Shown: one piece after another, positions 13,167-18,533 of the stretch
Layout: each line of letters opens with the position of its first letter
Position numbering within the stretch: position 1 is the first letter of the stretch
NCBI GenBank assembly: GCA_022447095.1
Contig: JAKUUP010000016.1
Span: forward strand, 1-35,659
DNA: 35,659 nt
Reading direction: 5' to 3'
Origin: Candidatus Thalassarchaeum betae
Lineage (GTDB): Archaea; Thermoplasmatota; Poseidoniia; Poseidoniales; Thalassarchaeaceae
Notes under the pieces: generated by a model
The model's input: only the letters and a program-made list of their open reading frames with translations
Told to the model about the DNA's origin: nothing
Databases searched by the model: none
Translations under genes and position numbers: made by a program

Positions 13167-13228
13167 GTATCCGCCGACCCGGCTTCACCTTAGAATCCTT
13201 CAAGCGAACCGCGTCAGTGCGACGCGCT

Positions 13229-15013
13229 ATGCCCGAGCGACCGCTGGCCCGAGGTGTTGCCGCACGTCACCGATTCGGCAGGTTGATGTCGCTCGGAGAC
13301 AGGAATCAGCCCTCAGCCTGGACTCCGGGGCTGGTATTGGGTCCGCAGGACCCCGAAATACCCCTCGCTTTAGCCCCTTTTACAAGCCTCAGGGGAGGAA
13401 ACTCCCTACCTGCCGAAATCACCCTTTCGACACGCGCCAACCTGTGCTACCCATTCGACTCTGAGGACACTTGGGAGGCGGCTGAGGGCCTAGTCCTCCC
13501 TCCAAGCCTCGCCGAGGCTGACTCGGGTGAGTTCGGGAATGGCGCGCAGGTACTCCCTGTGTCGTGGCAGACGATGCACCACGACCAGAGCCTCAACGAT
13601 ACCGAACTTGAACCATCGGTGGTGGTCTTGGTAGACGCGCCGCAACTGACTAAGCGACCGGGTATGCTCGTCGATGCACTCGACGCGTTGAGAGTGAGAT
13701 TCCCGACATCGCTGCTGTGGACTCCCGGAATCGGCGGCCCTGACAACTGCGCCATGCTAGTTTGGATGGGAGTGGATCTGTTCGATCTGGCACGTTCCAG
13801 ACACGCTTCCTCGTTAGGCGTCCTCCTATCTGAGGACGGACCTAGGGAAGTTGAGGAGACTGCGAGTGAGAGCGCGGATATGGATGCCCAATGCGCAGCT
13901 TGGACCCGCGCCCTCGCAGCCACTAGGGCTGCTATCAGGAACGGCTCGCTGCGTGAGCTCGCCGAGCGTCAGAGCACCTCAAGCCCCCGCTCGGTAGAAC
14001 GACTGCGTCGTCACGATGCAAAGATGAGGAGGTACGACGGCGGACGCGCCGGTTTGGCAAGAGTAGTAGGCAGTGAGCGCACTCTTAGATGCCATACCTA
14101 CATCAGCCGCGACGACCCGCTCATACACGATTGGCGCAACAGGGTCGCTGACCAGCACGAGCCTCCAGAGCATCAGCGCGACGCGCTCGTCCTGCTGCCG
14201 TGCTCGGCCACCAAGCCTTACAGAATCTCTCAGAGCCACAAGAAGTTTCTCAGGTCTCTGCAGTCTAACGGAATTCATCAGGTAATGGTCACGGCCCCTT
14301 TGGGGCTGGTGCCCCGAGAATTGGAGGAGATATGGCCCGCGGCGAACTACGACATACCGGTGACCGGCGATTGGGACTCCGACGAGATTACTGTGATTCG
14401 CGGCATGGTCACACGCTTGGCGACGAGAGTAGGGTATTCGCGAATCATCAACCACTCTGGAGTCACAATTGAGATCGAAGGCACTGAAGTCATCGACACT
14501 CGAAATGGCGATTCTGCCGGCTCACAGGAGGCGTTGGAGCGCTTGAAGTCGGAAGTAAACCGCGCCGCCGATGATCTGAATTTACCGAATCCTAAAACAG
14601 GTCATAACAGACTGGCTCAGTTGCGGGCGTTGTCTCGATTCCAGCATGGTACCGACGTTTGGCTCAAAGACGCCTCCGTCCTAGGTCGCCCACCGATATT
14701 TACCATCAAAAAGGAAGGGGTGCAGATCGCGCAGTGGAATCCACGCACAGCCCGCTTCGCCTTCTCGAAGTCCTGCCTACCATTGCTTGCCTCCTGCAAC
14801 GCGCTGCCTCGGGTATCCCTCAAGACCGGTGTTGATTGGCGGGGGGACTTGTTTTCAACAAATGTTGAGAGCGCTGAGGAAGGAATCAGAGCAGGCGACG
14901 AGGTTCTGGTCATGCAAGACGGTGGGTTGGTGGGTTCGGCACGTGCCGAGGCGCCCGGGTGGGAGTGGCCCAATGGCCCCGGCAGACTGGCCCGCGCACA
15001 GCACCGCCTGTGA
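13229..15013 (+). CDS. arcS: Archaeosine synthase ArcS (TGT-like, DUF5591 core and PUA)
   Basis: ArcS helps convert preQ0 at position 15 of archaeal tRNAs to archaeosine. The diagnostic core PCSATKPYRISQSH at residues ~324-337 matches the published PC-x3-KPY-x2-S-x2-H motif. It is followed by the family's APLGLVPRELEEIWPAANYDIPVTGDWD block. The N-terminal ~220 residues resemble a degenerate TGT barrel (VVLVDAPQLTKRPGMLVDAL, MLVWMGVDLFDLAR), and the C-terminal ~90 residues form a PUA RNA-binding domain (IRAGDEVLVMQDGGLVGSA). I use ATG 13229; GTG 13217 is in frame four codons upstream. It leads a three-gene run with uS15 and a RecJ-like protein. About 594 residues is normal for a single-chain ArcS. 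Confidence 0.9.
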   Translation: MPERPLARGVAARHRFGRLMSLGDRNQPSAWTPGLVLGPQDPEIPLALAPFTSLRGGNSLPAEITLSTRANLCYPFDSEDTWEAAEGLVLPPSLAEADSGEFGNGAQVLPVSWQTMHHDQSLNDTELEPSVVVLVDAPQLTKRPGMLVDALDALRVRFPTSLLWTPGIGGPDNCAMLVWMGVDLFDLARSRHASSLGVLLSEDGPREVEETASESADMDAQCAAWTRALAATRAAIRNGSLRELAERQSTSSPRSVERLRRHDAKMRRYDGGRAGLARVVGSERTLRCHTYISRDDPLIHDWRNRVADQHEPPEHQRDALVLLPCSATKPYRISQSHKKFLRSLQSNGIHQVMVTAPLGLVPRELEEIWPAANYDIPVTGDWDSDEITVIRGMVTRLATRVGYSRIINHSGVTIEIEGTEVIDTRNGDSAGSQEALERLKSEVNRAADDLNLPNPKTGHNRLAQLRALSRFQHGTDVWLKDASVLGRPPIFTIKKEGVQIAQWNPRTARFAFSKSCLPLLASCNALPRVSLKTGVDWRGDLFSTNVESAEEGIRAGDEVLVMQDGGLVGSARAEAPGWEWPNGPGRLARAQHRL

Positions 15014-15088: not shown

Positions 15089-15544
15089 ATGGCACGTATG
15101 CACAGTGGCGGAAAGGGTCGCAGCGGTTCCAACAAGCCTAGTGTGAGTGAGGCCCCCGCATGGTCGGCCACCGACAAGAAGGAAATCGAGGATCTGATAG
15201 TCAGCCTCGCTCAGGACGGAAACTCGACCGCTATCATCGGGACAATCCTGCGTGACCAGCATGCAGTCCCTGATGTCCGCTTAGTCACCGGAGAGAGAAT
15301 CTCGCAAACTCTTGCTCGAAATGGCATCTCACTTAGGTACCCTGAGGATATGATGAACCTCATGCGGCGGGCTTTGAGCCTCATCGACCACCTCGCAGGA
15401 AACCGCAAGGATTTGCACAACCGCCGCCAACTCGAGCTCTGTGAGTCGAAGATTCGACGTCTTGCCAGGTATTACAAGAGCAAGAACCAACTCGATGAAA
15501 ACTGGGTCTACAAACGCGACCAACTGCGACTGATGGTCGAGTGA
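15089..15544 (+). CDS. rps15: Small ribosomal subunit protein uS15 (archaeal S15P/S13e)
   Basis: The 151-residue protein begins MARMHSGGKGRSGSNKP, the characteristic archaeal/eukaryotic N-terminal extension of uS15, and continues with ATDKKEIEDLIVSLAQDG and the helical 16S-rRNA-binding core LMRRALSLIDHLAGNRKDLHNRRQLELCESKIRRLARYY. Length is as expected for archaea. The start is fixed by homology and by a GAGGT ribosome site at 15077-15081, seven bases before ATG. It is followed after a short gap by a RecJ-like gene, a neighbourhood conserved in many archaea. Confidence 0.97.
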   Translation: MARMHSGGKGRSGSNKPSVSEAPAWSATDKKEIEDLIVSLAQDGNSTAIIGTILRDQHAVPDVRLVTGERISQTLARNGISLRYPEDMMNLMRRALSLIDHLAGNRKDLHNRRQLELCESKIRRLARYYKSKNQLDENWVYKRDQLRLMVE

Positions 15545-15587
15545 TTCTTGCGTAGGGGATTTGAACCTCGACTGCACAGGCCCCTTA

Positions 15588-16445
15588 ATGCGCGCGCTCC
15601 TCGAGCTCGAACCGTTCGCTTCCGTTGCTGGTGTTCTCTCACAGGCCGCAGATGAGTTGCGTAGTTGCAACGAGACAATCCTCCTGCTCGCAGCTCCCTC
15701 TCTTCCCGGCGCTCTGGCTATCGCACCCCTAGAAGCGGCTCTAGTCGATGCTGGCCTGCCGTACCGACGGCGATTTAGACTCGAGGCCCCTGCCAAGGGG
15801 TCATGGGTGCATATCCTCGGTCCTGCTGAAGAAAGTGGCCCCCGCCTCTCCTCAGACCCCCCGCAACTCACTCTGGCTAGTACTGTCGTAGATGGCCTGA
15901 CCGGACATCAGGGCGATGCTCGGAAGGGGCCACTCACTGCAGTGGCTCAGGCGCACGCTCTGGCTCAGGCGATATGTCCAAAGGGCTCGAGAGTGCACCG
16001 ACTCAGGCCTTGGGCGATTTCGGGGAATTGGCTCCACTCTTCTTTGGATACCACTTACGACCCGGTCTTCACAGCCCTGCGGGACGCTCTGGTCGAGGAT
16101 GGATCGATACGAGTTGTCCCTCTACCAGAGGTACCTGAGCCCAACGTCAGCGCAAATTCGTGGATTGACCAGAACGCGCTCGACGCGGTCGCCTCACGAT
16201 GGGCCACATTGGATATCGAAGGTCGGGCACGTGCCCTCTCTCACCTGATGCGCCCCGCCCTCTCTCGCTCCACTCCATCCACAGCGAGACTTGAGGAGAT
16301 CGGCTGGCATTGCGTGTTGGGGCCTGGTTGGTCCACCGATCTGTCGGGGCAGGTGTCATCTGCGGCCGGGCTGTGGAAGGAGAATCCCGCCGCAGTAGCA
16401 GCGGGGAGACTGGTTGACTCGCTTCTTAGAAGCGGGCAGAAATGA
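15588..16445 (+). CDS. RecJ/Cdc45-like protein, DHH motif apparently lost
   Basis: In many archaea the gene after uS15 encodes a RecJ-like (DHH) protein, some of which join the GINS-MCM replication complex. This 285-residue product has the expected fold outline: a first strand and turn ILLLAAPSLPGALAIAPLEAALVDAGLPYRRRF, where active members have a DADG motif in place of APSLPG, and later AISGNWLHSS followed by ALRDALVEDGSIRV, resembling the GD-containing block and helix of the family. No DADG, DHH or other Asp/His metal ligands survive. It would therefore be a non-catalytic, Cdc45-like subunit, as described for short RecJ-like proteins of Sulfolobus. ATG 15588 is used; TTG 15561 is an alternative. 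The assignment rests on weak similarity plus gene order. Confidence 0.6.
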   Translation: MRALLELEPFASVAGVLSQAADELRSCNETILLLAAPSLPGALAIAPLEAALVDAGLPYRRRFRLEAPAKGSWVHILGPAEESGPRLSSDPPQLTLASTVVDGLTGHQGDARKGPLTAVAQAHALAQAICPKGSRVHRLRPWAISGNWLHSSLDTTYDPVFTALRDALVEDGSIRVVPLPEVPEPNVSANSWIDQNALDAVASRWATLDIEGRARALSHLMRPALSRSTPSTARLEEIGWHCVLGPGWSTDLSGQVSSAAGLWKENPAAVAAGRLVDSLLRSGQK

Positions 16446-18461
16446 TTATTCTTCTACCCTAAGCATACTCTTGCAGTTGTGGCATTCCAGCCTCAGGGGG
16501 CGTACGTCAGATTCCACAGGAACAGAGGTTCCACAGGCTGGGCAATCTATGTGTGGACCTCCTTTGCGCTTTCTAATCAGTTGCATAGTCTCCTGTTTCG
16601 GAGAGACTAGAGCAACGGGGAACACCAGTAGCACGGAAGACAAAACCACACCGAGCACTATCGGCATCGGAAGCCCGAGAACATAGATCACTAAGGCCAG
16701 ACCACCTAGGGCGACTACGGTTACTAAGGCGGGCACACTCGCCCTATTCTTCGTCAGTAACAAGCCCAGTCCGAGGGCACCTGAGAGTATCAAGACACAG
16801 AACATCGCACCGAACAGAGAGCTGAACATGGTGTTGCCTGAAGGTTGAAACTCCAGTCTGAAATCCAATTCCGGATCGAGTTCTGGCTGGTCGATGGTGA
16901 TCACTTCGACAATTAACCATCGCCGGTGAGAATACTCGATTTCATCGGCAGAGACGGCACCTAGGTCCTCCAGCATGGTGGCTCTGATTTCCGCATCCAG
17001 ATCGACTTCGGTCCAGTACTCCTCAAGCGAGGAGCGCACGAAGGTCTCGACCAGAACCTGCCTCTCACCGCTTTCGGTGCTGTAGGAAGTTTCGATGACG
17101 ATGTCTATGGCATCGGCGCTGAATGCCCTCGTGCCGCCCATGTCGATGATTATCTCGGTCGGCCCGAGGTCGATCGGATTGACTCCGACAATTGCCTCGA
17201 CTTCGAGTGAGAGGCCGTTAGACAAGAATGAGCGCAGGTTAGATGCAGAACCGGTAAGGTGTCCCTGCAGCGCGAGGAGTTCGGAATCATCGACCCTACC
17301 GTTGTGCTTGTCCGCAGATGGCACCGAGTCGGAGTACGAGTTGAGGTTGCGCCACCAACTGTTGGAACTGAGACTCTGATTGCCGATGTTGTCCAAGCCC
17401 CAGCGCATCCACTGAGACATCGCTCCGTCGAAACTGATAATGACCTCGCGATCTATCTTGTATCCGTCCCACTTCGCCTCGATGTCGAGGTCCAGTGAGG
17501 AGCCACCGGTTCGTAGTGGTTCGTTCGCCGGATACCAGCCTCCAGTGTTGCCGGTGTCCTCGCCGATGGTGATTTCATGGGTGCGACTGGTATCGATTCG
17601 TAATCCGCTCTGCGGTATGAGGTGGAAGTCTACACGTACACTGCCCCCTTCCGAGGTCTCCGGCACCTCCCAAACGAAGGTCACTTCAACTCCGTTGTCC
17701 AGTCCCGTCGCTATCGGCATCTGGCTGACATCGGCGTTTTGCACCGCAATACCCCCGGTCGAACCAGACCACATGCGGTCATCGAAGCCTGATGTGAGGA
17801 CGATGGGGAAATAGACCAGCCGCCCGAGGACGCTCGCATCCTTCATTTCGATGTCAACCAGAGGGAATCTCATCGAGACGTGTGCGTCGTGTTCCTCTGA
17901 GCCCCAGAAGAATCTGATTCCGGCCTCGTCTCCAGGCTGTGCGAACATCAGGCTTCGAACAGTCAGAGTGAGTTCAATCAAATCACCGTCGCGCACCTCT
18001 CCCTGGTCGACTTCCACGGTGATCTGTAATTCACCAGAACCGGTAAGATACGGGTCGATACCGGAAGTGCCTTCGTAGAAAGAGCCACCAATCTTCACCT
18101 CTAGGGTCGAGTTGATGTTCACGCCGACGGCACCCTCGACAGTATAGGGGATCCAAAAGTCCCAGCTAGCGTTGGGGTAACTGCCTTCAATGCCCCAGAC
18201 TACGCCCCATGTTCCAATATTAATCTCGCCGAGGATAGAAGGAGTAACCAAGGTCGACTCGGAATCATCCACATCTTCCTCCAAGTCCCCCTCGAACGGC
18301 GAGAGCGTCCCGACGTCAGCCTCGCCCATCAGGTAGAGGTTGAAGTCGGCGGAGTTGCAGCACGTAACCTCATCCTGAGCGACTACCGCCATCGGAGACA
18401 TGCTCATGGCCAACATCAGCGCCACCAGAGCAAGGGCGCCGGGTCCGCGTCGATGCGACAT
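16446..18461 (-). CDS. Surface/membrane protein with three C-terminal TM helices and a zinc ribbon
   Basis: The 671-residue protein begins MSHRRGPGALALVALMLAMSM, a signal peptide ending near VVAQ; this ATG is preferred over upstream in-frame starts, which would bury the signal sequence. About 510 residues of acidic, strand-rich ectodomain follow without a recognisable motif. Three hydrophobic helices occupy about residues 544-620 (FGAMFCVLILSGALGLGLLL, then two more), and the C-terminal ~30 residues form a cytosolic zinc ribbon (CPACGT...CHNCKS). The layout suggests a surface sensor or anchor with a cytosolic metal-bound knob, but no function is known. Its stop abuts the stop of the RecJ-like gene with no gap. 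Confidence 0.8.
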   Translation of the reverse strand: MSHRRGPGALALVALMLAMSMSPMAVVAQDEVTCCNSADFNLYLMGEADVGTLSPFEGDLEEDVDDSESTLVTPSILGEINIGTWGVVWGIEGSYPNASWDFWIPYTVEGAVGVNINSTLEVKIGGSFYEGTSGIDPYLTGSGELQITVEVDQGEVRDGDLIELTLTVRSLMFAQPGDEAGIRFFWGSEEHDAHVSMRFPLVDIEMKDASVLGRLVYFPIVLTSGFDDRMWSGSTGGIAVQNADVSQMPIATGLDNGVEVTFVWEVPETSEGGSVRVDFHLIPQSGLRIDTSRTHEITIGEDTGNTGGWYPANEPLRTGGSSLDLDIEAKWDGYKIDREVIISFDGAMSQWMRWGLDNIGNQSLSSNSWWRNLNSYSDSVPSADKHNGRVDDSELLALQGHLTGSASNLRSFLSNGLSLEVEAIVGVNPIDLGPTEIIIDMGGTRAFSADAIDIVIETSYSTESGERQVLVETFVRSSLEEYWTEVDLDAEIRATMLEDLGAVSADEIEYSHRRWLIVEVITIDQPELDPELDFRLEFQPSGNTMFSSLFGAMFCVLILSGALGLGLLLTKNRASVPALVTVVALGGLALVIYVLGLPMPIVLGVVLSSVLLVFPVALVSPKQETMQLIRKRKGGPHIDCPACGTSVPVESDVRPLRLECHNCKSMLRVEE

Positions 18462-18533
18462 CAGTCCTCGTGGCCGGCCAGTCTCCCTTGAATCCGCCGC
18501 CTCACGGGACCACACTCGCGCGGTTCGCGTGGG

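Follow-up and report, generated by a model that had tools for sequence, protein, structure and literature searches.

A DHHA1-less, inactive relative of GAN and Cdc45 encoded behind uS15 in Poseidoniales: a probable structural subunit of the archaeal MCM-GINS complex

The DHH-DHHA1 groove of RecJ/GAN-type proteins grips ssDNA, and it is debated whether the parts of Cdc45 and GAN responsible for nuclease activity and ssDNA binding matter for helicase function. In GAN, the GINS-associated nuclease (arCOG00427; T. kodakarensis, PDB 5GHR/5GHS/5GHT), as in Cdc45, the DHH domain is the binding site for the Gins51/Psf1 C-terminal domain, and the CMG-interaction domain (CID) that follows it binds the N-tier of MCM (PMC5484177). 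The gan gene is not essential in T. kodakarensis; deleting it impairs growth, and a nuclease-dead gan restores growth in full (PMC5717133). Inactive RecJ/Cdc45 homologs encoded at the S15 locus are already known from Halobacteria (arCOG00428) and Crenarchaeota (arCOG00432, arCOG05692) (PMC3307487, PMC7776575), and it was the argument from this locus that allowed Makarova et al. (2012) to recognise the diverged inactive homologs of Thermoproteales (PMC3307487). A shortened, nuclease-less RecJ relative, RecJdbh/RecJdbd (Cdc45), binds GINS and boosts MCM in Sulfolobus (PMC7776575).

The window, by which we mean the whole 35,659-nucleotide stretch of Candidatus Thalassarchaeum betae DNA that was analysed, encodes a protein of 285 amino acids at 15588-16445 (+). 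The source archaeon lives in the surface ocean. The protein is probably (a probability of roughly 0.78) the Poseidoniales ortholog of GAN, reduced to what we infer to be a small structural Cdc45 subunit that would bind, and act in, the helicase complex of MCM and GINS. The ORF begins with an ATG, 43 nt downstream of the uS15 stop codon, with an alternative in-frame TTG start at 15561. An intact ORF of the family was found in 177 of the 194 Poseidoniales (Marine Group II) genomes sampled in a search of the order, and dN/dS is 0.08 relative to the closest named relative (L200); the gene is under purifying selection and, on these two grounds, the ORF is real. The nearest named relatives are in genomes of Candidatus Thalassarchaeum (Thalassarchaeaceae, Marine Group II), and more distant members occur in Poseidoniaceae and on the Marine Group II chromosome CM001443.1. 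The 285-aa protein has no significant Pfam or NCBIfam match and a sequence search of the PDB likewise returned nothing useful; weak matches to PIN_10, IC140 and MthK were treated as chance. The assignment proposed here thus concerns a family that is invisible to Pfam and NCBIfam models, and a limited literature search found no report that links these archaea with RecJ, GINS or Cdc45 or describes this family.

Directly upstream is the gene for ribosomal protein uS15 (15089-15544, +; PF08069 match at G000:C8:15089-15268, G000 being the window's own genome), and the same order recurs at nearly all loci of the family. With the window excluded, uS15 adjoins the family gene in 46 of 47 family loci, and the remaining locus starts at a contig edge. 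uS15 is directly upstream on the same strand in 71 of the 80 named loci; among the other nine, it is directly upstream but cut by the contig end in two, directly downstream on the opposite strand in three and present as a fragment ~2 kb upstream in one, and three loci start at a contig end. The linkage of the family gene to uS15 survives local rearrangement. At 13 loci of other Thermoplasmatota, the gene behind uS15 encodes an active RecJ/GAN in which HYDADG-type, DHH and GGGH motifs are all present, and a profile of these GANs matches the solved GAN and RecJ-Cdc45 at E < 1e-90. An active GAN is also retained in this slot in G203, a genome of this class that falls outside Poseidoniales and is probably from Marine Group III. 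The 285-aa family therefore occupies the exact former place of GAN, in line with the first-pass annotation, which had noted that a position after uS15 fits archaeal RecJ-like proteins. The gene lies at the position of an active nuclease in relatives, and these archaea thus appear to rely on a pared-down, purely structural version, much like human cells. The gene directly upstream of uS15 (13217-15013, +), mentioned for context only, resembles that for archaeosine synthase subunit alpha (ArcS), with an NCBIfam NF040592 match at E 2.7e-72 that falls under the curated cut-off. Convergent with the family gene is a gene at 16446-18515 (-) that encodes a membrane protein with C-terminal CxxC pairs.

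An AlphaFold2 model of the 285-aa protein, generated from an alignment of 37 members, has a pLDDT of 95.2 and a pTM of 0.92, and is predicted to consist of a DHH-type fold followed by a CID/helical region. When this model was compared with the PDB by Foldseek, matches 1 to 38 were all to RecJ/GAN/Cdc45 proteins (GAN, PfuRecJ, RecJ-Cdc45, RecJ2, bacterial RecJ and eukaryotic Cdc45), with the first unrelated structure at rank 39 (E 0.23). The best match was T. kodakarensis GAN (5ght, E 3.4e-6), followed by Pfu RecJ (4.9e-6), with Mth RecJ-Cdc45 at E 1.6e-4 and eukaryotic Cdc45 chains from E 0.02. The RecJ-like fold outline read from the sequence at the outset is thus borne out by the model. Matches to archaeal RecJ/GAN have moderate TM-scores (~0.5-0.58) and an rmsd of 6-8 A over the whole chain, values that fit a common fold with altered domain angles in a much smaller protein. 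A search of a viral fold library gave weak RecJ matches and nothing stronger. M. jannaschii RecJ2 is also among the PDB matches, as might be expected if the protein were a HAN- or RNase-type RecJ relative that functions in repair or RNA processing rather than a member of the GAN/Cdc45 group. This is very improbable, as the top fold scores are to GAN and PfuRecJ, the locus is the GAN locus, HAN has no CID (PMC5717133) whereas the 285-aa family keeps CID-collinear sequence, and the catalysis that HAN requires in vivo has been lost here with motif I.

Alignment of the family to the uS15-linked GANs by hhalign gave a score of 30.9, with residues 10-254 collinear, as compared to a mean of 14.8 (SD 2.5, maximum 26.7) for 160 column shuffles. 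The two halves were also compared separately with the GAN profile, and each outscored all 200 of its column shuffles. The DHH-like half (residues 1-150; 15588-16037, +) scored 31.4, against a shuffled mean of 12.0 and maximum of 19.1, and the C-terminal half scored 22.8, against a mean of 11.3 and maximum of 17.4. This second region (16035-16442, +) is collinear with the GAN CID and its connecting helices, and the chain stops where DHHA1 would start. The Pfam DHH_CID model picked out a single member of the family, with an E of 0.28, and the CID assignment therefore rests on this collinearity. The P values of the single family-versus-GAN comparisons are modest (2e-4 to 6e-3), but the two halves, each independent of the other, concur with the fold search and the locus in pointing to homology with archaeal GAN. 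The absence of any significant single-sequence or Pfam match could also be explained if an unrelated Rossmann-like protein had displaced GAN at this locus and come to resemble it by convergence. This seems extremely improbable, given an unbroken run of 38 related fold matches with other families only from E 0.23, the collinear, above-shuffle matches of both halves to the GAN profile, and the exact positional replacement of GAN. The first-pass annotation had proposed a profile search and a structure prediction, to be set against a lack of any DHH-superfamily match or a fold unlike RecJ; a DHH-superfamily profile match and a RecJ-like predicted fold are what the two analyses returned.

The metal-binding motifs of GAN (HxDxD, D, DHH, GD) are missing, motif I as directly aligned and the others at inferred positions. 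At motif I (residues 36-41; 15693-15710, +), the gap-free profile alignment places A-P-S-L-P-G exactly on the H-Y-D-A-D-G of the uS15-linked GANs, and the replacement of DADG that had been read from the letters alone therefore stands. Across 96 distinct sequences of the family, S/T/D/N predominate at the first Asp position and S/I/E/Q/V at the second, with P/A/E/L at that of His; about 20 of the 96 retain the first Asp alone. The motif III (DHH) position, placed by strand order in the model and residue counts with the exact register inferred, reads A-S-T in the window (15876-15884, +). None of the 96 members has a DHH tripeptide there, as the initial reading had suggested for this protein; the only DHH string in the family, in L032, is within MDHHLRSS of a later helix. 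The position of motif IV (G-D-R/K-Q in GAN), the register of which comes from domain order, has an invariant G, then N/L/Q, then an invariant W (16023-16031, +). Asp and His are not conserved across the family at the inferred motif III and IV positions. The chain stops short of a DHHA1 domain, and neither GGGH nor a PF02272 match was found in the family. With these ligands lost, the chain ending before DHHA1 and no GGGH, nuclease activity is, judged from sequence, very unlikely.

DHH-family and GAN-profile searches found no second GAN or RecJ, nor any other DHH protein, in the window's own genome, which answers the question raised earlier of whether an active RecJ/GAN is encoded elsewhere. The same searches of sampled genomes of this genus found nothing else, and the control genomes all matched. 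The DHH proteins found elsewhere in the order were considered as a second RecJ and rejected, as none matches GAN over its length; in the sampled frames of ~330 and ~460 aa, the DHH part matches NrnA/pyrophosphatase-type models, and the ~330-aa frame also matches the C-terminal part of RecJ models. The ~460-aa protein encoded at L051:994-2379 (genus g21, Poseidoniaceae) has an N-terminal region before its pyrophosphatase/NrnA-like DHH part, and frames of similar length are widespread in Poseidoniaceae and absent from the window's own genus.

The own genome encodes MCM (G000:C70) and a GINS51-like protein (G000:C67:41446-41946). The Pfam Sld5 model detected no GINS in these genomes, and a GINS51 profile was therefore built from other Thermoplasmatota; it matched the protein at E 5e-4 and its orthologs at up to 8e-10. 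GINS was also looked for beside PriS and MCM and was not found there. The predicted structure of the GINS51-like protein (pLDDT 76.5, with a disordered middle) matches Sld5/Psf1 and T. kodakarensis GINS, and its B domain matches the Gins51C chain from the GAN co-crystal (5ghr_B) with a TMt of 0.77 and an rmsd of 1.5 A. The Poseidoniales GINS51-like protein is missed by both Pfam Sld5 and Gins51_C; at L195:1126-2013 (G000:C67) it is ~290 aa long, and its A and B domains are separated by a long acidic stretch that is modelled with low confidence. The own genome has no match to PriS (PF01896), although seven related genomes have one; this is probably an assembly gap.

The 285-aa protein shares with GAN the locus behind uS15, the order of DHH followed by helices collinear with the CID region and the best fold match, but has no metal ligands or DHHA1 and has 285 rather than about 470 residues. 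With eukaryotic Cdc45 it has in common a RecJ fold that is catalytically dead, here as judged by sequence, and, as we propose, a structural function alongside MCM and GINS; Cdc45, however, has a DHHA1 domain as well as an extended insertion of helices and, with about 540 ordered residues, is far longer. An inactivated DHH domain at an S15-linked locus is also found in the homologs from Halobacteria and Crenarchaeota, from which the 285-aa family differs as a separate lineage with an apparently independent inactivation; arCOG05692 is reported to have most of the core elements of DHHA1 (PMC3307487), whereas this family has none of the domain. The parallel with Sulfolobus drawn in the first-pass annotation holds insofar as both are shortened, nuclease-less RecJ relatives, but it is not close: in RecJdbh/RecJdbd the DHH is degenerate and the C-terminal, DNA-binding part is kept, whereas DHH and the region collinear with the CID and helices are kept here and DHHA1 is lost. 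The further suggestion of that annotation, that this lineage may use an inactive Cdc45-like subunit, is supported, and membership of the helicase complex would be the role so implied.

An ancestral active GAN encoded behind uS15 would have lost its metal ligands and DHHA1 domain, leaving a small structural protein in which the DHH fold is joined to a putative CID and helices. Such a protein would brace and stimulate the replicative helicase, as does eukaryotic Cdc45, would not cut DNA and would have no DHH-DHHA1 groove with which to grip ssDNA. The parts retained are presumably those that contact GINS and MCM in GAN and Cdc45. Given this, the rescue of T. kodakarensis by nuclease-dead gan and the non-essentiality of gan, a structural and sometimes dispensable Cdc45 is the most economical reading. 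In an abundant marine lineage, evolution would then have dropped the nuclease and ssDNA-binding parts and left those presumed to contact GINS and MCM, adding one more apparently independent RecJ inactivation at the S15 locus to those of Crenarchaeota and Halobacteria, beside that of eukaryotic Cdc45. What appears to be new is that inactivation seems to have happened independently in Poseidoniales, that DHHA1 is missing, that no RecJ serves as a backup and that a sister genus later lost the gene.

That loss was seen in one genus of Thalassarchaeaceae (g2), in which the family was not detected in eight genomes. At the two loci read (L091:4029-5238, L092:2667-5246), the gene is cleanly gone and a few bases separate uS15 from a convergent gene, the ortholog of the membrane protein gene at 16446-18515 in the window. 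GINS was detected in two genomes of this genus and MCM in the one checked. In a second genus of the class (g23), GAN is absent both behind uS15 and elsewhere, and GINS was detected. Directly behind uS15 at the two g23 loci (L089:2294-3508, L090:2372-3585) is a TrmI-like methyltransferase gene, which in G203 (L088) stands after GAN; these loci are clean GAN deletions. With the family gene lost in one genus and GAN in the other, the subunit is not indispensable.

A genus that lacks the gene and still has GINS and MCM would also be consistent with a GAN descendant that no longer belongs to the replisome and, as a catalytically dead remnant of RecJ, has taken on another function, such as one in RNA metabolism or translation. 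The neighbouring uS15 and tRNA-modification genes, the persistence of the uS15 link after local rearrangement and the disappearance of the ssDNA-binding groove could be read in the same way. We regard this as unlikely. The uS15 link is ancestral to the active GAN genes as well, and so is uninformative on a new role. The retained region corresponds to the one through which GAN and Cdc45 contact GINS and MCM (PMC5484177). Gene loss is no argument for a different role, as T. kodakarensis can do without GAN (PMC5717133). For the preferred reading, a structural Cdc45, we lean towards a series from active nuclease through dead scaffold to loss, in which Poseidoniales would have a minimal Cdc45 of DHH fold and CID, genomes of the window's genus would encode neither an active RecJ nor any further DHH protein, and related genera would run MCM-GINS without Cdc45. 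The genera without the gene form a natural comparison set.
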